Shown piece after piece: positions 24,011-32,237 of a stretch of DNA of 64,000 nt (the stretch's first letter is position 1; each line of letters begins with the position of its first letter). Position numbers and translations under genes: made by a program. The notes below the pieces were generated by a model. The model worked only from the letters and a program-made list of their open reading frames with translations, was not told where the DNA came from and made no database searches. The stretch covers positions 1-64,000 of the forward strand of contig WASS01000013.1 of the NCBI GenBank assembly GCA_009712635.1. The letters are read 5' to 3'. The DNA is from Hungatella sp. (lineage in GTDB: Bacteria > Bacillota > Clostridia > Lachnospirales > Lachnospiraceae).

Positions 24011-24409
24011 TTAAAGTGTACTTCTGCTTTTTATCCTCTCCAATGCTTCAAGCAGCATACACCCAACACCATAACATGCAATATCCTTTATATCAAACAC
24101 CGAACCTATTACGATTCGTAAAAACCTGTTATCTTCCAGCCCAAGTACGTGTACTAATTTGAAATATTGCAACACCTCTACTCCTGCTGCAAATAAGAAT
24201 ACATACAATGGAAGTAATCTGCATTTTTCTGGTATAAAGATCCTCGTGAAGCTATACACTAAAATTACTACCAACATATCTCCTACATATGGACGTATAA
24301 AAGAATCATGTACATATAACGCAATTATCACTTCTATAAGCAGGAGCAATACAAATGCAATCCCATACTTAATTCTTAACTGATTTCTTTTTGCCTTTTG
24401 TAAGCTCAT
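24011..24409 (-). CDS. DUF2809 family membrane protein
   Basis: 132 aa from the ATG at 24407-24409 (GGAGAGAGTT upstream). Four hydrophobic segments: FVLLLLIEVIIALYV, VGDMLVVILVYSFTRIF, LLPLYVFLFAAGVEVLQYF and IACYGVGCMLLEAL, with the conserved VEVLQYFKLVHVLGL and SVFDIKDIACY of DUF2809. The function of the family is not known to me. It overlaps the end of the MmcQ/YjbR gene by about 40 bases and so ends the gene train. It may be a passenger rather than part of a defence function. Confidence 0.75.
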   Translation of the reverse strand: MSLQKAKRNQLRIKYGIAFVLLLLIEVIIALYVHDSFIRPYVGDMLVVILVYSFTRIFIPEKCRLLPLYVFLFAAGVEVLQYFKLVHVLGLEDNRFLRIVIGSVFDIKDIACYGVGCMLLEALERIKSRSTL

Positions 24410-24728
24410 AACTCTCTCCAATCATTCTGATAATATCTTTATCTGGAATTGTGCCATCAAGAATTATGGAATTCCAATGTTCTTTATTCTGATGATATGC
24501 CGGTATTACAGAAGTAAATGTGCTTCTCCAGAAATCTCTCCACTCTGGGTCACATTTGACGTTTATCCAGATACTGCCTTCCCTCTCATAGATCCAGGCA
24601 AATGCTTTTTTATTGGTCTTATGGCGGATTAAGGTCCAGTTTGCATCGTGAAATGGATAGTCCTCATAGACCTCTTTTAATTTCATGCATAAATTTATTA
24701 CTTCTGAACGTTCTTTCAAAATCATCAC
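24369..24728 (-). CDS. MmcQ/YjbR family protein
   Basis: 119 aa. The family pattern of a small alpha/beta CyaY-like fold is visible: YEDYPFHDANWTLIRHKTNKKAFAWIYEREGSIWINVKCDPEWRDFWRSTFTSVIPAYHQNKEHWNSIILDGTIPDKDI. Members are often described as DNA-binding, but no biochemical role is firm. It follows the Nudix gene by 29 bp and overlaps the DUF2809 gene. Membership of the same transcript is likely from spacing. Confidence 0.78.
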   Translation of the reverse strand: MMILKERSEVINLCMKLKEVYEDYPFHDANWTLIRHKTNKKAFAWIYEREGSIWINVKCDPEWRDFWRSTFTSVIPAYHQNKEHWNSIILDGTIPDKDIIRMIGESYELTKGKKKSVKN

Positions 24729-24757
24729 CCACTTTATACTATTATAGATATGACTAT

Positions 24758-25159
24758 CTATAAAGACATACGGATTTTATCTACTAGAGTTATATCCGCA
24801 GGTAACCAGCCCACAGAATTCATTTCTTCCTTGGTCAACCATTTTGCATCCTCATGCTCTTTTAAAACCAGATCCCCTGCAACAATTTCTGACCAGAAAC
24901 AATCCATAGACAGATGAAATGTAGGATAATCATATTCAATGGTATGAATCAACTCTCCTACTGAAATCTCTGTTTCTAATTCTTCCTTTATCTCTCTTAC
25001 CAGTGCCTCTTGAGGAGTCTCACCATCTTCAATTTTTCCACCAGGAAATTCCCAACCACCTTTTAAATCGCCATAACCTCGCTGAGTGGCAAAAATAATT
25101 GGTTCTCCCTTTACATTAACATCCTTAATCACTGCAGCTACTACTCTAACTATTTTCAT
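24758..25159 (-). CDS. Nudix (MutT-like) nucleoside triphosphate pyrophosphohydrolase
   Basis: 133 aa. The Nudix box is clear at residues 40-62: GGKIEDGETPQEALVREIKEEL, with the metal-binding REIKEEL. The tail (SMDCFWSEIVAGDLVLKEHEDAKWLTKEEM) is typical of 8-oxo-dGTP or CTP/5-methyl-dCTP pyrophosphohydrolases. It removes pyrophosphate from nucleotide triphosphates, usually damaged or modified ones. Its start overlaps the helicase stop by four bases (ATGA), so the two are translated together, which suggests a joint function rather than simple housekeeping. Confidence 0.88.
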   Translation of the reverse strand: MKIVRVVAAVIKDVNVKGEPIIFATQRGYGDLKGGWEFPGGKIEDGETPQEALVREIKEELETEISVGELIHTIEYDYPTFHLSMDCFWSEIVAGDLVLKEHEDAKWLTKEEMNSVGWLPADITLVDKIRMSL

Positions 25160-28100
25160 CCTGCCATCACTTCCTCTTTCTTAATATTACTTTGCAAATA
25201 ACGCAAAAGATCCTCTCTAACCGCATGATGCATCTTCATTTGAAACTTTGCAATATCACGTTCTTTTCCATAATTATCGTTCTTGCGAGCTGGTTTAGCC
25301 TCTATTACTTCAAACTGTCCTACATAATAGAAGTCTGTTTCTGCATCACTTTTCTTAACTAAAAGATGTTTTCTCTGTGCTGTCATCACATCCGCTACAT
25401 AAGAACTATTAATTCCTCTTCCTATCTGAGAATCCCATCGAAATATCATATTATCTTCAAAGGCATCAGCATAATCCGGTTTTCCATCAACATAATTTTT
25501 ATCATCAGAACTTTCTTCTTTATGATATGTCACAAAAATAAACACATCTTCATTTATTCGCTTCATACCATACATAATTGAGGATAAATCCTTACCACAA
25601 TTCATTAAAAGGCTCACATCACGCCTAGAATATTTTTCATACAAAACAAATGGTGTGCCATTTTCCTGATTAATTAAATACCTTTCTTTATATCTTCTAA
25701 GTCCTACTTGAATAATATCATTGACCTGTTTGTAGAATTCCATATGGAGAAGACGGTCCGTAAAACCCTTAAGCCTTTGTAATGTTCTCTTTGCACCATA
25801 ATTAACAATATCAATATGGCAGTATTTTTTGTACTCCTCTTCTTTGCTTACAAATTTTCCTTGTAGAACTTCTATCGCATTATTAAAAGAGGTTAAGTCA
25901 AGCTCATACCCGTAAGTATACTGAAACTCCTGTTTTATCTGATCAACATAGATTACTTCATGGTTTAAAAAGCACTTTAATATTTCAAGTTCATATGGTC
26001 TTGTTCCACTCAGTATCGTTTTCGACAAATACTCTAAGGTAATCAATTCCTGTTCTGATATCCTCTCCATATAAAGTTCTTTCTCTACTGACACTAAGAA
26101 ACTTTGATAGGTCTTATATTCTCTGATAATTATAAGTGGATCTGTTTCTGCATTTTCGTAAAAATCTAAAAGATATGGAACTCTACCTAATCGATTCTTC
26201 AAAGAAAAATAGCTTTCTTTGATAATCGATTTGATCCCTTTAATCTTATCAATTGACAAAAAAATCTTTTCTTTAGCAATCTCGTCAAAATGAATCGTAG
26301 AAGCACCCGGTATCGTACTGTTTCCACTAATAATGTATTTGCGAATCGTGTCTGGATTATAAGAACGATCTCCTGATAATGCGACTGGAATCATAAAGTT
26401 GTTATTATAATTACCAATAAAATCTAGAATTACAACATACTCTTTTCCTTCTGCTTTCCTAAGACCTCTTCCCAGCTGCTGAATAAATACAATTGGCGAC
26501 TGTGTAGGTCGAAGCATAATTACCTGATTAACTTCTATGATATCTACACCTTCGTTTAAAATTTCTACTGAAAATATGTAATCCAAGGGTTGCCTGTTTT
26601 CAAAATCATCATCTTCATCTATGGCCAATCTCTCAAATGCTTCTTGCCGTTCCTCCTCAGAGGAATTGCCATTCAAGGCGATTGTTCTATATAATTTACC
26701 ATTTGACGGATTAATAATCTGATTAAATTTCGCTGATAATTCTTCAGACTCGTCTATTCGACCACAAAATATTAATCCCTTTACTCTATCGCCACTATAT
26801 CCGTAATAATTAGCCTGCTCAATAATATGACGTACTCGTTCAGCCCCTGTTAATTGATTAAAATCTCTTTCGGAAATGTTTTTGGCTTTAATCTTCTTAT
26901 CATCCATCATTGAAATATCACTGATACCAAAATAATGAAATGGACAGAGCATATTTTCTTCCATAGCCTGCTGAAGACGAATCTCATAAGCTATTTGGTA
27001 ATTAAAAATTTCATAAATATTCTTCTCTGCAATATTATCATTTCGGGTATCAGGGGTTGCCGTCATACCGAGCCAAAGCATGGGTTTGAAATAATTCATT
27101 ACTTTTTGATAAGTATCCGCAGAGATATGATGTGCTTCATCTAGTATAATACAATCAAACTCATCATAATTATATTTAAATAAATGTTCATCTCTGTTCA
27201 GAGTCTGTACTGTTGCAAATACAAAATCACAATCATATTCATGATATCCAGCCCCAACTAAACCCATTGAGACTGACTTATCAAATACCTTTTGATAAGA
27301 TTTCCTGGACTGACGCGCAAGCTGCCCTCTATGAACTAAAAATAATACTCTTTTAAATGCAAGCTCACGCATTGCAAATGCTGAAGCATAAGTTTTTCCT
27401 GTTCCCGTTGCTGAAATCAGAAGTGCTCTTTCTTTACCAGCACCTAATATTTTTCTAAGATTTGTAATAAATCCTACCTGCATACTATTGGGCTGTAATC
27501 TGTATTTTTCAATAGATGGAACCTCGTCTTGCTTGGCAATCTTACGTTGGTGCTTAATGAAATTATATCGTTCTTCATAATTTTCATAAAATTCATCGAA
27601 CTTAAGTGAATATCTGGAGTCCCAAAGTTCATAGAATTCTCCAATAATCTCCTGCGCCATCTCTCCCTGCTCAGTAGAAATAACTCTTGTATTCCATTCT
27701 CTATTAATTGTTAATGCTGCGCTTGTAATATTGGAACTACCAATTATAATCCGATAGATTTCTTCCTTTTTAAATATATATCCCTTCGTATGAAATCCTT
27801 TATCAGCGACTTCTACATCAAACATTTTAAGAGTTATGTTTTTAAGTTCATTTAACTTTTTTAGTGCTTTAGGTTCACTAAAATTTAAATAATTGGTTGT
27901 TAGAATCTCTCCAGGAATGCTTTTCTTCTCAAGTTCTTTCAACGTCTGAAGAAGGGGAGTAATCCCCCCCATTGTTATAAAAGCAACACTTATTTGAAAC
28001 TGATCACATGTTAAAAGTTCATTCTCTATAGTCGATAGTACTTTTTTACCTACTTTATGATTATTTGAAACAAACTGAGGCTTGTAAGCCAGATTAGATG

Positions 28101-28167
28101 AAAACGTACTATCAACATATGCCGTTTCAAACCCATTCCTAATTTCAGCCAATTTTTCTTTTGTCAT
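25156..28167 (-). CDS. PLD nuclease - DEAH helicase - DUF3427 fusion protein
   Basis: 1003 aa. Residues 30-200 are a phospholipase D-type nuclease domain with H126-x-K128 in FHTKGYIF and GSSN at 143-146. Residues 225-620 are a superfamily 2 helicase: Walker A GTGKT at 255-259, DEAH at 343-346, motif III GMTATP, and motif VI QQLGRGLRKAEG. From about 640 to the end is the DUF3427 region, with YEKYSRRDVSLLMN and FEVIEAKPARKNDNYGKERDI, which reads like a target-recognition or nuclease-like domain. This combination occurs in putative restriction or repair helicases. It is preceded by an HNH gene (15 bp gap) and followed by an overlapping Nudix gene. The DNA is visibly AT-rich compared with the dnaE region. 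Confidence 0.88.
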   Translation of the reverse strand: MTKEKLAEIRNGFETAYVDSTFSSNLAYKPQFVSNNHKVGKKVLSTIENELLTCDQFQISVAFITMGGITPLLQTLKELEKKSIPGEILTTNYLNFSEPKALKKLNELKNITLKMFDVEVADKGFHTKGYIFKKEEIYRIIIGSSNITSAALTINREWNTRVISTEQGEMAQEIIGEFYELWDSRYSLKFDEFYENYEERYNFIKHQRKIAKQDEVPSIEKYRLQPNSMQVGFITNLRKILGAGKERALLISATGTGKTYASAFAMRELAFKRVLFLVHRGQLARQSRKSYQKVFDKSVSMGLVGAGYHEYDCDFVFATVQTLNRDEHLFKYNYDEFDCIILDEAHHISADTYQKVMNYFKPMLWLGMTATPDTRNDNIAEKNIYEIFNYQIAYEIRLQQAMEENMLCPFHYFGISDISMMDDKKIKAKNISERDFNQLTGAERVRHIIEQANYYGYSGDRVKGLIFCGRIDESEELSAKFNQIINPSNGKLYRTIALNGNSSEEERQEAFERLAIDEDDDFENRQPLDYIFSVEILNEGVDIIEVNQVIMLRPTQSPIVFIQQLGRGLRKAEGKEYVVILDFIGNYNNNFMIPVALSGDRSYNPDTIRKYIISGNSTIPGASTIHFDEIAKEKIFLSIDKIKGIKSIIKESYFSLKNRLGRVPYLLDFYENAETDPLIIIREYKTYQSFLVSVEKELYMERISEQELITLEYLSKTILSGTRPYELEILKCFLNHEVIYVDQIKQEFQYTYGYELDLTSFNNAIEVLQGKFVSKEEEYKKYCHIDIVNYGAKRTLQRLKGFTDRLLHMEFYKQVNDIIQVGLRRYKERYLINQENGTPFVLYEKYSRRDVSLLMNCGKDLSSIMYGMKRINEDVFIFVTYHKEESSDDKNYVDGKPDYADAFEDNMIFRWDSQIGRGINSSYVADVMTAQRKHLLVKKSDAETDFYYVGQFEVIEAKPARKNDNYGKERDIAKFQMKMHHAVREDLLRYLQSNIKKEEVMAG

Positions 28168-28182
28168 GTACCCATTCCCCTT

Positions 28183-29352
28183 TTACCAAATTTGGTACCC
28201 TTGTCTTCTCGCCGAATCATAGACCGGCTGCATGTTTTTCTCAAGAATATGATAAAATTCTTCTTTTGAATTTCCTTTTCTATATAGCTCCTGATTCGCC
28301 CATATGGAATGCAAATTATCACGAAAGCAAGACTCGTACTTTTTTCTAATAACTGGCTTTCTTTCATCATGAATTATGCCATACAAAATATACTGGTTAC
28401 ATGCAAATCGTCCAAAAAACGGATCCCACTTTGGAAGCTTATTACTTTTTGATGAATTTAACGCGGAATCCATAGGCATTAAATTCCATAATTCATCGTT
28501 CATTACGAAGGACCAAGGAATAAAATGATCCACATCGTAACTTCCTTTTACTATCGGTGAATTCTTAAAGACATCCACGATAGGTTTCTCATCCAAAACT
28601 GCTTCCCAAAGTTTCCTAACGCTATTAATCCTGCGCATTTTTTCATCCATTGGTGCCAGCTTATATATAAGTCCTGGGACTTCAGGATTATTATTCTGAA
28701 GCCACTTTACCTTTTCATACTGAATCCAGCCAAGTATTGATACGGTATTGTCCTGAATCATCTTTATCCATGATTCACTAAAATAGACTTCTTTCTTAAG
28801 TTTACTTCCTGTTCCAAGTGTATAGGGCAGTAATGATATCTGATTGACTCGTTCTATATAAGAAACCATTCTTTGAGTACTACCCCAATCCGCTCTTTCT
28901 TTACACTTATCAAAAAATCCTGAAAGCGCCCGATACGGAACCATATGAGTTAACTGAATTTTATAAAGAGCCAATTCTTTATCATACTGTTTTATTTTAT
29001 TCTTAATCTCTATCTTGGAAGCATTTGCTGGAAGCTGGCTTAACTCCTGCAGCGTAAAAACGGCTCTTTCCAACCCGTCTTTTATCCGGCCTTCAATCAC
29101 ACCGCTTAGATGAATATGAAATTCTAAAACCGTATACCACGCATTTGCAATCATCTCATCAATAATATCGTTAAAGCTGGTCTCTTTTAGGTCTTCTGAA
29201 ATTAAATGTACGATTGCCTCAAGCCAATAGAACTTATAACAGTATGACGGGTTTTTCATCATAAGAGAGAATGATTCTATATCAAGACTGTTATAATACT
29301 TTCCATCAATATTTAATTGATATCCGATTTTTTCATAATCAAATTGAGGCAT
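28183..29352 (-). CDS. HNH endonuclease domain protein
   Basis: 389 aa. An HNH motif lies near the end of the second third: DVDHFIPWSF (D275, H276), ELWNLMP (N290) and NSSKSNKLP (N299-K305), the form seen in HNH_4-like nucleases. The first 240 residues are mostly helical and unfamiliar. It has no methylase or specificity partner nearby. The gene lies directly ahead of the PLD-helicase-DUF3427 gene, with a 15 bp gap, so nuclease and helicase are probably made together. Role in cutting foreign or modified DNA is inferred from domain content. Confidence 0.83.
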   Translation of the reverse strand: MPQFDYEKIGYQLNIDGKYYNSLDIESFSLMMKNPSYCYKFYWLEAIVHLISEDLKETSFNDIIDEMIANAWYTVLEFHIHLSGVIEGRIKDGLERAVFTLQELSQLPANASKIEIKNKIKQYDKELALYKIQLTHMVPYRALSGFFDKCKERADWGSTQRMVSYIERVNQISLLPYTLGTGSKLKKEVYFSESWIKMIQDNTVSILGWIQYEKVKWLQNNNPEVPGLIYKLAPMDEKMRRINSVRKLWEAVLDEKPIVDVFKNSPIVKGSYDVDHFIPWSFVMNDELWNLMPMDSALNSSKSNKLPKWDPFFGRFACNQYILYGIIHDERKPVIRKKYESCFRDNLHSIWANQELYRKGNSKEEFYHILEKNMQPVYDSARRQGYQIW

Positions 29353-29403
29353 TTATCCTCATCCCCCTTGTCTCACTGAACTGGTGCGATTCGATTCTCT
29401 GAA

Positions 29404-29745
29404 TCATCTCTGTTTCAGTTGATCATACTTTTCCTTGCTGCCCTTAGCTAATTCTACTGGATACTTTTCATTGTTTCTCTTAATCTTGGCCTGAACAATC
29501 TCATCTATATCAAGATCGCACGCATCTGCCATAAGCACACAGTAATTTATTACATCAGCTAATTCTTCTCTTATCTTGTCCATCTTCTCTGTGCATTTCA
29601 CATCCTCAGCACTCCACTGAAAAACTTCCAATAGTTCAGCCGCTTCCAGAGAAATTGATATGGCTAAATCCTTCGGATTATGAAATTGTCTCCAGTCGCG
29701 TTCATCACGAAATTGCAATATCTTATTTATTGTTTCTTGTGTCAT
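29404..29745 (-). CDS. MazG-like nucleotide pyrophosphohydrolase
   Basis: 113 aa, all-alpha NTP-PPase fold. Metal-binding residues are in LEAAELLEVFQWS and EELADVINYCVLMAD (the E-E-x-x-D pattern of MazG/RS21-C6 type enzymes), and the tail KRNNEKYPVELAKGSKEKYDQL is typical of short members that act on dCTP or modified dNTPs. GAGGG lies ahead of the ATG. It precedes the HNH gene by 51 bp. Together with the Nudix protein it means that two NTP-hydrolysing enzymes lie on both sides of the nuclease/helicase pair. Confidence 0.85.
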   Translation of the reverse strand: MTQETINKILQFRDERDWRQFHNPKDLAISISLEAAELLEVFQWSAEDVKCTEKMDKIREELADVINYCVLMADACDLDIDEIVQAKIKRNNEKYPVELAKGSKEKYDQLKQR

Positions 29746-29774
29746 TAATATTCCCTCTTAATTCATCCTGCTTT

Positions 29775-30485
29775 TTAAAAGAACCGGTGCAAAAAGTTCA
29801 AAATGTTTTCTTTTCTAACTGGCTCACTGTGGCCCACCACTGCCAACTCAAAGTCAATAATACTTAGCTCCTCATATAATTGTTTTGTTTTCTCCAAATC
29901 TCTGTAATGATTTTGATAAAAGTCATCATTATAAATATCACCTAAAAATATCACTCTTTCCTCTGGAATGAAAACAGCCACGGAATCGTCACTATGGGCA
30001 GAAGGAAGGTGCATACATTCGCACGTAAGACTGCCGCAGTCCAATACAATTTTTTGCTCAAAGGTTATCAGTGCTGGAACGATCTTTATTTCTTTTAATT
30101 TGGGATACTCTGCCCGGATGTGCTCATCAGCAAACGAAATTTCTTCTCCGGATATCAACCGCTCTTTCATTTTGGCATCGGTAAATTCCCAGGAAGACAT
30201 TCTGACCAATTCCTGGTTGGTTTTTGTATGTGCAATTGTTTCCGCATCAACAGCATGCAGCCCATATGTATGATCCCAATGCCAGTGTGTGATAACACAA
30301 TATTTCGTTTTTTTTAATCCTTGCTGTGTTACAAAAAAATTATAATCTTTCACATGATTCGCCGAATTGCCCGCATCAACCATTACCGAACATCGATCAC
30401 CATTGATATAACCCAAAACAGGGCGATCGCTGTTGGAATCGCATTCCGTATAATATATATTTTTTGTTAACTGATTCAATCTCAT
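29775..30485 (-). CDS. MBL-fold metallo-hydrolase
   Basis: 236 aa from the ATG at 30483-30485, with AGGAGA seven bases upstream. Metal motif HWHWDHTYGLH, a second metal His in CMHLPSAHSDDSVAV and the Asp in FLGDIYNDDF are all present, so it should be active. Substrate unknown. It begins 10 bp after the HPr-like gene and ends 29 bp before the MazG-like gene, so it may link the two parts of the gene train. It is not closely similar to the MBL protein at 19.5 kb. Confidence 0.8.
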   Translation of the reverse strand: MRLNQLTKNIYYTECDSNSDRPVLGYINGDRCSVMVDAGNSANHVKDYNFFVTQQGLKKTKYCVITHWHWDHTYGLHAVDAETIAHTKTNQELVRMSSWEFTDAKMKERLISGEEISFADEHIRAEYPKLKEIKIVPALITFEQKIVLDCGSLTCECMHLPSAHSDDSVAVFIPEERVIFLGDIYNDDFYQNHYRDLEKTKQLYEELSIIDFELAVVGHSEPVRKENILNFLHRFF

Positions 30486-30495
30486 AAAATGTCTC

Positions 30496-30768
30496 CTATT
30501 CTCCAAAGCCGCTGTCCGCAAAATTTGCTATGGACAAAATCGCTTCTTTTTCATCCTCGCCCTGGGCTTCAAACGTCAGCTTGTCCCCCATTATTGCGTT
30601 CATATCCATTACGGAGAGTACATTCTTTGCATTATATTTCCTGGTGAGGTCTTCATTTTTACAGACTGTAATTTCACTTATAAATCCCATAGCAAGCTTT
30701 GACAGCAAACTGGCTGGTCTTGCATGTAATCCATATGGGTTTGGTACGGTCACGATAACGATTTCCAT
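30496..30768 (-). CDS. HPr-like protein with active His but no regulatory Ser
   Basis: 90 aa from the ATG at 30766-30768, GGGAGG six bases upstream. The phosphorylation motif GLHARPASLL has the His15 equivalent and neighbouring Arg. At the site where normal HPr carries Ser46 (KSIxG), the protein reads NAKNVLSVMDM, with Asn in place of Ser; a serine four residues on is at the usual Gly/Ser position of the following loop. It could carry PEP-derived phosphate but would not be a substrate of HPr kinase. It has its own promoter and precedes the MBL hydrolase by 10 bp. A true dual-site HPr must lie elsewhere. Confidence 0.83.
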   Translation of the reverse strand: MEIVIVTVPNPYGLHARPASLLSKLAMGFISEITVCKNEDLTRKYNAKNVLSVMDMNAIMGDKLTFEAQGEDEKEAILSIANFADSGFGE

Positions 30769-30832
30769 GGTATTCCTCCCGTTCTTATACAGTAATAGCG
30801 GCATTTAGAAGATCATCAATCTCTTTAAGGAA

Positions 30833-31406: not shown

Positions 31407-32237
31407 TCAATTATAAAGAGCGTACATCGTACCAGGGCCAGCTAATCCGTCAGCACTAAGACCTTTGCTTGATTGAAATCGTTTAACCGCTGAAGTTGTT
31501 CCACTTCCAAAGGTACCATCTACTCCATTTGGATCAAATCCCCGGCAATAGAGCATCCCCTGCATAATATGAACTGCATTACCTTTATCTCCGGATTTCA
31601 ATGTTTTTACAGCTGCTTTGGAGCCAGCTCCAAATACACCATCTGCAGTCACACCAAGAATTCTCTGATATGCTTTTGTTGCTGCTTTCTTTGTATTAGA
31701 ACCGTATAATCCATCCGCTGTCAGACCAGATGAATAATTGCTGTTCAGCCAGTTCTGAAATGCTCTAATTGTAGCATCTCCTGTTGTGGTTCCACCACTA
31801 GAGGTCCCATATAAAAACATTTCCTTTTCTGCTGCCCGCCTTTTAACCAATCCGTCGAGCACCTCACCACCAGCATAAATCCACTTGTCGAATTCATTGG
31901 CTGCTCCGTTAATATCTCCTTGGTTTAACTTTTTAAGAAGCGTACTAGAACCAAAGTTACCCCCACCTAAGTTGAATGTGAAAGATACCAGTGCATCAAA
32001 CTGATTCTGACTAATGGCATATGTAACTTTATTATTTACTGTATTCTCAGCTGATTTTAGATCAGACTTCAAATACGCCTCCGCCTGTGCTTCTGTGATT
32101 GTCATACCGGATTTCACACCAGAGGTATGCCCATACCCTATGGTCCACACTCCTACAGAATCCTGATACGCCGTCAGTCTCAAACCTTCAAAAGATTTAA
32201 TTAAATTAATACCTGCTTGTGATGTTGAAAAACTCAT
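31407..32237 (-). CDS. GH24 phage-type lysozyme with two peptidoglycan-binding domains
   Basis: 276 aa. Residues 1-145 are a T4/lambdoid GH24 lysozyme with the catalytic triad E17 (SFEG), D26 (YQD) and T32 (WTIGYGHT). Two PG_binding_1 domains follow (about 155-210 and 215-276, with TADGLYGSNTKKA, DGVFGAGSKAA and DGTFGSGTTSAVKRFQ). It cleaves the glycan strands of peptidoglycan. There is no signal peptide and no holin or other phage gene within reach, so it is a solitary endolysin, either domesticated or left from a prophage. GGAGG lies at the right distance, but is inside a long potential hairpin (32245-32293). Confidence 0.88.
   Translation of the reverse strand: MSFSTSQAGINLIKSFEGLRLTAYQDSVGVWTIGYGHTSGVKSGMTITEAQAEAYLKSDLKSAENTVNNKVTYAISQNQFDALVSFTFNLGGGNFGSSTLLKKLNQGDINGAANEFDKWIYAGGEVLDGLVKRRAAEKEMFLYGTSSGGTTTGDATIRAFQNWLNSNYSSGLTADGLYGSNTKKAATKAYQRILGVTADGVFGAGSKAAVKTLKSGDKGNAVHIMQGMLYCRGFDPNGVDGTFGSGTTSAVKRFQSSKGLSADGLAGPGTMYALYN

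Follow-up and report, generated by a model that had tools for sequence, protein, structure and literature searches.

According to published work, SauUSI acts as a single protein and cuts DNA containing 5-methylcytosine or 5-hydroxymethylcytosine, but not N4-methylcytosine (PMC3874153). Its SRA domain recognizes the site, its ATPase drives the enzyme along the DNA, and the DNA is shredded (PMC7913695; articles given by PMC number are cited throughout from excerpts of their text). The Nudix hydrolase Q5LBB1 (PDB 3GWY) exhibits a kcat/Km of 4.8e6 M-1 s-1 for 5-methyl-dCTP, 4.4e6 for 5-MeOH-dCTP, 6.7e6 for 5-methyl-CTP, and 8.5e4 for 5-hydroxy-dCTP (PMC5158307), of which 5-MeOH-dCTP is taken here as the hydroxymethyl compound. 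The two cytosine modifications for which SauUSI cuts DNA are thus those carried by the first two of these substrates. An enzyme of another fold, dCTP pyrophosphatase 1 (DCTPP1, also RS21-C6), prefers dCTP and 5-methyl-dCTP, and in cultured cells it reduces both the level of 5-methyl-dCTP and the methylation of DNA (PMC4491611). The PADLOC collection has the SauUSI-type enzyme and a Nudix hydrolase as separate entries, the latter being the single-gene candidate PDC-S07, a name that occurs in a Streptococcus thermophilus survey whose excerpted text gives neither a substrate nor a partner (PMC11514479). No account of a pairing between SauUSI or type IV restriction and Nudix, or of its role, was found in journal titles and abstract openings, preprints apart, and the words Nudix, pyrophosph-, MutT, and operon are all absent from the 2021 SauUSI paper. 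Here we describe such a pairing in Hungatella sp. (assembly GCA_009712635.1), on positions 1 to 64,000 of contig WASS01000013.1, the stretch of 64,000 nucleotides that is called the window below. A sequence-only reading of this window had proposed an eight-gene defense or DNA-processing operon around a helicase, which is identified here as a SauUSI-type enzyme accompanied by a Nudix hydrolase predicted to cleave 5-methyl- and 5-hydroxymethyl-dCTP.

The helicase of the window is, judging from its sequence, a full-length relative of SauUSI. Residues 10–992 were aligned with residues 9–952 of SauUSI (PDB 7clg) at E = 1.1e-172, the PADLOC model mREase_IV PDLC03658 matched at E = 4.8e-177, and Pfam detected PLDc_2, ResIII (5.5e-36), and DUF3427 (PF11907, 1.7e-71), in the same domain order as in SauUSI. 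The suspicion of a defense gene set was hence well placed, as PADLOC identifies the helicase over its whole length as a type IV methyl-directed restriction enzyme and the adjoining Nudix as PDC-S07. The phospholipase D (PLD) and DEAH motifs were also rightly read as intact: an alignment of 17 sequences shows no variation at the key residues of the PLD HxK, Walker A, and DEAH motifs, H126 and K128 of HxK among them, and H126 is aligned to the catalytic H119 of SauUSI. Among the six residues modelled to form the 5-methylcytosine pocket of SauUSI (M829, Y831, F841, I842, D858, and W868; PMC7913695), the window enzyme shares three (F841, D858, and W868) and carries the substitutions I842V, M829Y, and Y831M. 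Of 120 relatives, 119 retain D858; the residue found at the Y831 position is Tyr (64), Met (32), Phe (23), or Leu (1), and that at the W868 position is Trp (54), Ala (65), or Met (1). Since these pocket residues vary both in the window enzyme (829 and 831) and among its relatives (Met at 831, Ala at 868), the modification that is read may vary. The window enzyme likely reads a flipped cytosine. The locus further differs from that of SauUSI in that the Nudix gene lies downstream instead of upstream, and in having HNH and MazG neighbors.

The Nudix gene is a nearly constant companion of this restriction enzyme. It adjoins the SauUSI-type gene in 75 of 80 named loci, which are the best 80 of 561 relatives and come nearly all from Lachnospiraceae or other Clostridia. 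The two genes lie within 300 bp of each other in 72 of the 75, and three of the five loci without Nudix stop at a contig edge. When 50 homologous loci were clustered by gene family, Nudix was found in 44, HNH in 7, and MazG in 4, and no family other than Nudix exceeded 7. The same association was observed at the genome level in the family of Hungatella, represented by 299 genomes, one per genus. Nudix was present in 60 of the 61 genomes having a near full-length SauUSI (alignment >2.2 kb) and in 72 of the 238 others, which can hold SauUSI fragments (Fisher p = 1.3e-24, among the matches listed and with kinship ignored). It lay within 10 kb of SauUSI in 57 of these 60 genomes and elsewhere in the genome in 3. 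The underlying search retained, among the matches listed, 113 of 150 rows, comprising 90 SauUSI-type places and 23 places of a second PLD-helicase group, after removal of rows that matched the helicase alone and of further fragments of a gene already counted. The 299 genomes and the 80 loci share species and are not independent samples.

As the 80-locus sample is mostly clostridial, other families were reached through a plasmid collection and phylum-wide genomes. The SauUSI–Nudix pairing survives REARRANGEMENT: a strong SauUSI match was obtained in 17 of 398 phylum-wide genomes, 14 of them from other families, and Nudix lies within approximately 150 bp of SauUSI in 11 of these 14 loci (the gap of locus L299 was computed from the phylum-search coordinates). 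The Nudix gene is downstream and codirectional in one of the 11, upstream and codirectional in four, and downstream and convergent in six. In the plasmid collection, 19 records match SauUSI, of which 7 were examined. Nudix is located directly upstream in the records of Hymenobacter, Lactiplantibacillus, Latilactobacillus, Limosilactobacillus, and Staphylococcus aureus, so that five of the six best plasmid matches exhibit the pairing, SauUSI itself included. The S. aureus copy (NZ_CP077890) is SauUSI itself, as 500 residues of 7clg are matched with 1095 bits before the copy is broken further on, and its Nudix gene stops 1 bp before the SauUSI gene. In contrast to these, no Nudix match was detected in the 10.8 kb around SauUSI in a Fusobacterium record (L262), where the open reading frame after SauUSI is not Nudix, and no directly upstream Nudix accompanies the second-group PLD-helicase of Peptoclostridium.

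The best PDB match of the window Nudix is 3gwy (5.6e-23), and PDC-S07 matches it at 1.9e-47. Q5LBB1 is thus its nearest solved sequence, and the two share the Nudix box and a conserved aspartate. Among 176 homologues (Nudix open reading frames of ≥45% identity, identical ones removed from 181 matches), the Nudix-box residues are conserved in 99–100%. The metal residues of both nucleotide pyrophosphatases had been read as intact from the letters of the window, which stands for the ExxE/ExxD residues of MazG and for the conserved box residues of Nudix, with the qualification that the window protein has Glu in place of the final glycine of the box. An Asp occupies position 122 in 99% of the 176 homologues, as well as in E. 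coli NudG and the five SauUSI-linked Nudix proteins from Hymenobacter, lactobacilli, and S. aureus, whereas E. coli MutT has Asn there. We take the residue at this position to matter for base choice. From these features we infer that the window Nudix hydrolyzes 5-methyl- and 5-hydroxymethyl-dCTP. The proposed pairing of a nuclease/helicase with modified-nucleotide enzymes is hence retained, and its range of damaged or modified dNTPs is narrowed to 5-substituted dCTP. E. coli NudG is just 34% identical to the window Nudix and sits among unrelated genes. The published accounts of both Q5LBB1 and NudG mention no restriction enzyme in the portions available.

We lean slightly towards methylcytosine restriction coupled to cleaning of the nucleotide pool as the function of this gene pair, with self-protection as the most likely purpose, which is also the purpose that we infer for the Nudix enzyme. 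The SauUSI relative would recognize 5-methyl- and probably 5-hydroxymethylcytosine in incoming DNA, its ATPase would drive it along the DNA, and its PLD nuclease would shred it. Degraded methylated DNA, whether foreign or from the host, would release 5-methyl-dCMP, from which kinases may produce the triphosphate. 5-Methyl-dCTP is a substrate for polymerases (PMC10742078), and its incorporation in a cell containing SauUSI would create targets in the cell's own chromosome. Hydrolysis of 5-methyl- and 5-hydroxymethyl-dCTP to the monophosphate by Nudix, helped in the window by MazG, would then serve as a metabolic safeguard. A safeguard predicts what was observed, namely that SauUSI hardly ever occurs without Nudix and that Nudix often occurs without SauUSI.

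Several observations weigh against this interpretation. The single SauUSI polypeptide is reportedly sufficient both in vitro and when cloned in E. coli (PMC3874153), so that cutting does not require Nudix. NudG is present in E. coli, however, and might stand in for it, and the clone therefore does not contradict a safeguard. Two of the 80 named loci have room for a Nudix gene and lack it, one genome (G297) is the only one with SauUSI and no Nudix at the cut-off used, and the in-trans cases are few (3/4). Three of the 14 other-family loci are also without Nudix, namely one partial match and two full-length loci that belong to a single family. Two of the six modelled pocket residues, at 829 and 831, are strongly different in the window enzyme, and His38 of DCTPP1 lies opposite a gap in the window MazG, 7 of the 8 pocket residues being identical. 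C5 methyltransferases are not significantly rarer in SauUSI genomes (25/61 vs 127/238, p = 0.088). The genome of the window itself holds two of them, and in another genome (G007) a SauUSI-linked Nudix has one 4.8 kb away. The idea that genomes with SauUSI generally exclude C5 methyltransferases was considered and dropped on the same p value.

A different use of the same activities would be an attack on phage nucleotide pools, in which Nudix, together with MazG, destroys 5-hydroxymethyl- and 5-methyl-dCTP of the phage and SauUSI cuts phage DNA that is still modified, leaving self-protection as a secondary effect. In favor of this, 5-methyl- and 5-MeOH-dCTP are hydrolyzed nearly equally by 3GWY, Nudix is a defense candidate in PADLOC, and the cassette occupies a site of restriction-system exchange. 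We nevertheless regard this as unlikely, since SauUSI almost never occurs without Nudix while the converse is frequent, and since Nudix further occurs in association with C5-methyltransferase systems and as a fusion with Vsr, both being contexts of the cell's own 5-methylcytosine that favor sanitation. These links were found at Nudix genes located away from SauUSI. There are 62 places having no SauUSI-type or second-group match within 10 kb, and 59 of them were taken and combined with locus L180, which lies beside a second-group PLD-helicase, to give 60 loci. A C5 methyltransferase was identified in 5 of the 60, compared with 0 of the 50 SauUSI-linked loci. On a Treponema plasmid, the neighborhood of Nudix includes two C5 methyltransferases and an Eco47II-type enzyme, and a Collinsella protein is a Nudix–Vsr fusion, Vsr being an endonuclease that repairs deaminated 5-methylcytosine. 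DUF3427 remnants were found in 2 of the 60 loci, and the remaining neighbors in the loci taken are mixed. The linkage is only local, as genomes having Nudix without SauUSI exhibit no excess of C5 methyltransferases (28/53 vs 124/246, p = 0.76).

Other arrangements of the Nudix gene were noted as well. It is fused to a methyltransferase domain of an approximately 200-residue type in L062 (2837–3850, by clustering), L144 (5998–7011, by Pfam), and L170 (6001–6990, by Pfam). An HNH gene overlaps the end of this fusion in L062 and L144, and the L144 domain also matches PADLOC mad2. Nudix orthologues are fused to a DNA alkylation repair domain in L154 (4954–6066) and to a metallo-beta-lactamase fold in L127 (5078–6082). 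In two Priestia megaterium plasmids (L276 and L278), an HNH endonuclease gene lies divergently beside Nudix, and is assigned to HNH_2 by Pfam in L276.

Two further points speak against the assignment to 5-substituted dCTP, and would fit a MutT-like housekeeping role instead, in which Nudix removes 8-oxo-dGTP or other damaged nucleotides and is linked to a nuclease because DNA breakage is mutagenic. The NCBIfam MutT equivalog scores the window Nudix at 84.9 bits (cut-off 97.9), above the NudG-type model PRK10546 at 78.2 bits (cut-off 156), so that neither cut-off is reached. The MutT label is carried by the second-best PDB match, 5x1x, in which the aspartate is present too, and by several plasmid relatives in their annotation. 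As the PRK10546 cut-off is missed, our claim is that the window enzyme works like a NudG-type enzyme, not that it is NudG. A MutT/8-oxo-dGTP role is judged improbable despite the slight leaning of the family models, because the nearest relative of solved structure acts on 5-substituted dCTP, Asp replaces the Asn of E. coli MutT at position 122 in 99% of the homologues, and the linked genes handle 5-methylcytosine. Neutral co-inheritance, by which Nudix merely shares a restriction cassette that is an exchangeable block within the genus, is very hard to reconcile with a pairing that recurs in three arrangements including a convergent one, with the three genomes that hold Nudix elsewhere, and with the failure of any other family to exceed 7 of 50 loci.

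The best PDB matches of the window MazG are 4qgp (2.4e-21) and the dCTP pyrophosphatase 1 structures 2a3q and 6sqw (1.6e-19). Trp47, Glu63, Glu66, Trp73, Glu95, Asp98, and Tyr102 of the DCTPP1 pocket (list from PMC4491611) are identical in the window MazG in an alignment read by eye. Both pocket tryptophans contact the 5-methyl group in the DCTPP1 docking model (PMC4491611). The window protein differs from DCTPP1 in being a bacterial short form, and these likenesses suggest that it may act on 5-methyl-dCTP. Two unrelated folds having relatives that cleave 5-methyl-dCTP hence recur beside the same nuclease. A MazG-like gene also lies directly after SauUSI in the Lactiplantibacillus and Limosilactobacillus records.

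In the 299 genomes, MazG occurs at 69 places in 67 genomes and HNH at 71 places in 62 genomes (71 of 75 rows, four second fragments being dropped). Pairs within 3 kb were observed 11 times for HNH–MazG (0.08 expected) and 10 times for HNH–Nudix (0.13 expected). Among the matches listed, SauUSI has HNH within 3 kb 11 times (0.12 expected) and MazG 6 times (0.09 expected), where all expected numbers assume 3.0-Mb genomes and uniform placement. The small number of close pairs relative to the copy totals indicates that most MazG and HNH copies sit elsewhere. In the 80 named loci, HNH was found in 16, and the 7 loci that contain MazG all have HNH as well. HNH is a recurrent, but not constant, partner. 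Its protein, which gave only weak matches to the HNH domain of Cas9, could conceivably be a second nuclease. The second PLD-helicase group (e.g., L034, 12195–14708, and L081–L088) is approximately 30% identical to SauUSI, and the member tested by Pfam is without DUF3427. Of its 23 places among the matches listed, 7 have Nudix within 3 kb. An S-adenosylmethionine-dependent methyltransferase-like protein of approximately 200 residues (GSGRD motif), absent among the window genes, is encoded by a gene overlapping or abutting the HNH gene in several loci; the protein occurs in L037 (6791–7423), L061 (15377–16078), L066 (5976–6569), L128 (7484–8104), L081–L084, L089, and L090. The gene overlaps the start of the second-group PLD-helicase in 6 of 10 loci (L081–L090).

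A broader proposition, which we advance tentatively and with the balance close to even, is that SauUSI-type enzymes, SauUSI included, are two-component systems of a nuclease against methylcytosine DNA and a dedicated pool enzyme against methylated dCTP. Restriction autoimmunity through salvage would then be a general constraint met by a metabolic antidote, sometimes doubled by the unrelated MazG/DCTPP1 fold. If true, this bears on how a cell with a 5-methylcytosine-dependent nuclease avoids poisoning itself while recycling methylated DNA, and it would provide a prokaryotic counterpart to human DCTPP1. A likely substrate would also be assigned to the defense candidate PDC-S07, making the question testable by a simple enzyme assay.

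The features of the cluster are collected in Table 1. All eight open reading frames of the sequence-only reading were found on one strand with Pfam-supported domains, and its spacing was reproduced, with a 15-bp gap between HNH and the helicase gene and a 4-bp overlap of the helicase and Nudix genes. With the TTG starts listed, HPr and MBL overlap by 26 bp and MmcQ and DUF2809 by 53 bp. The stretch is AT-rich as described, the GC content of 2-kb windows being 0.34–0.36 at 24–30 kb and 0.36–0.47 in the rest of the window.

Table 1. Features of the SauUSI–Nudix cluster and its flanks (positions in the window).
Feature	Position	Strand	Basis
HPr-like	30496-30804	-	Pfam PF00381
Metallo-beta-lactamase (MBL)-fold hydrolase	29775-30521	-	Pfam PF00753
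MazG-like all-alpha NTP pyrophosphatase, DCTPP1/RS21-C6-like	29404-29745	-	Pfam PF12643; PDB matches
HNH nuclease-like protein	28183-29352	-	Pfam PF13395; HNH_4 at residues 267-307
SauUSI-type type IV restriction enzyme, 1003 residues (PLD, superfamily 2 helicase-like ATPase, coupler, SRA/DUF3427)	25156-28167	-	Pfam PF13091, PF04851 and PF11907
Nudix hydrolase, predicted 5-methyl-/5-hydroxymethyl-dCTP pyrophosphatase	24758-25159	-	Pfam PF00293
MmcQ/YjbR, flank	24369-24728	-	Pfam PF04237
DUF2809, flank	24011-24421	-	Pfam PF10990
Exchangeable segment Nudix-SauUSI-HNH	24737-29418	.	Missing in two sister species that have both flanks
Flank pair MBL and HPr-like	29775-30804	-	Each in 0/80 named loci; retained in sister species without SauUSI
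Flank pair MmcQ/YjbR and DUF2809	24011-24728	-	In 2/80 and 0/80 named loci, respectively; retained in sister species without SauUSI

The eight genes do not travel together, as observed in the 80 named loci, in the clustering of 50 loci, and in two sister species, and a single eight-gene unit was not borne out. In these two species, the four outer genes and MazG remain, and a C5-methyltransferase/Eco47II-type system replaces Nudix, SauUSI, and HNH. The eight-gene operon was rejected on the locus counts and on these species. The Nudix–SauUSI–HNH segment behaves as an exchangeable block within the genus, and HPr, MBL, MmcQ, and DUF2809 are flanking genes outside the system. Random variation of the helicase neighbors, which had been named as grounds for refuting the proposed cluster, thus applies to these four and not to Nudix, HNH, or MazG. 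DUF2809 was found in 1 of the 60 other loci (L075). MmcQ/YjbR-type genes lie within approximately 4.5 kb of Nudix in L186, L256, L275, and L279, as in the window, a number too small for a link. The entire SauUSI–Nudix–HNH set was found at 66–76% identity in a human faecal record filed as "Bacteriophage sp." (MT836554, L267), and this record could represent either a mobile element or carried-over bacterial DNA. Beside the cluster in the window, at 31407–32237, lies the gene of an endolysin of the phage-lysozyme type with peptidoglycan-binding repeats, which is partly deleted in genome G312.

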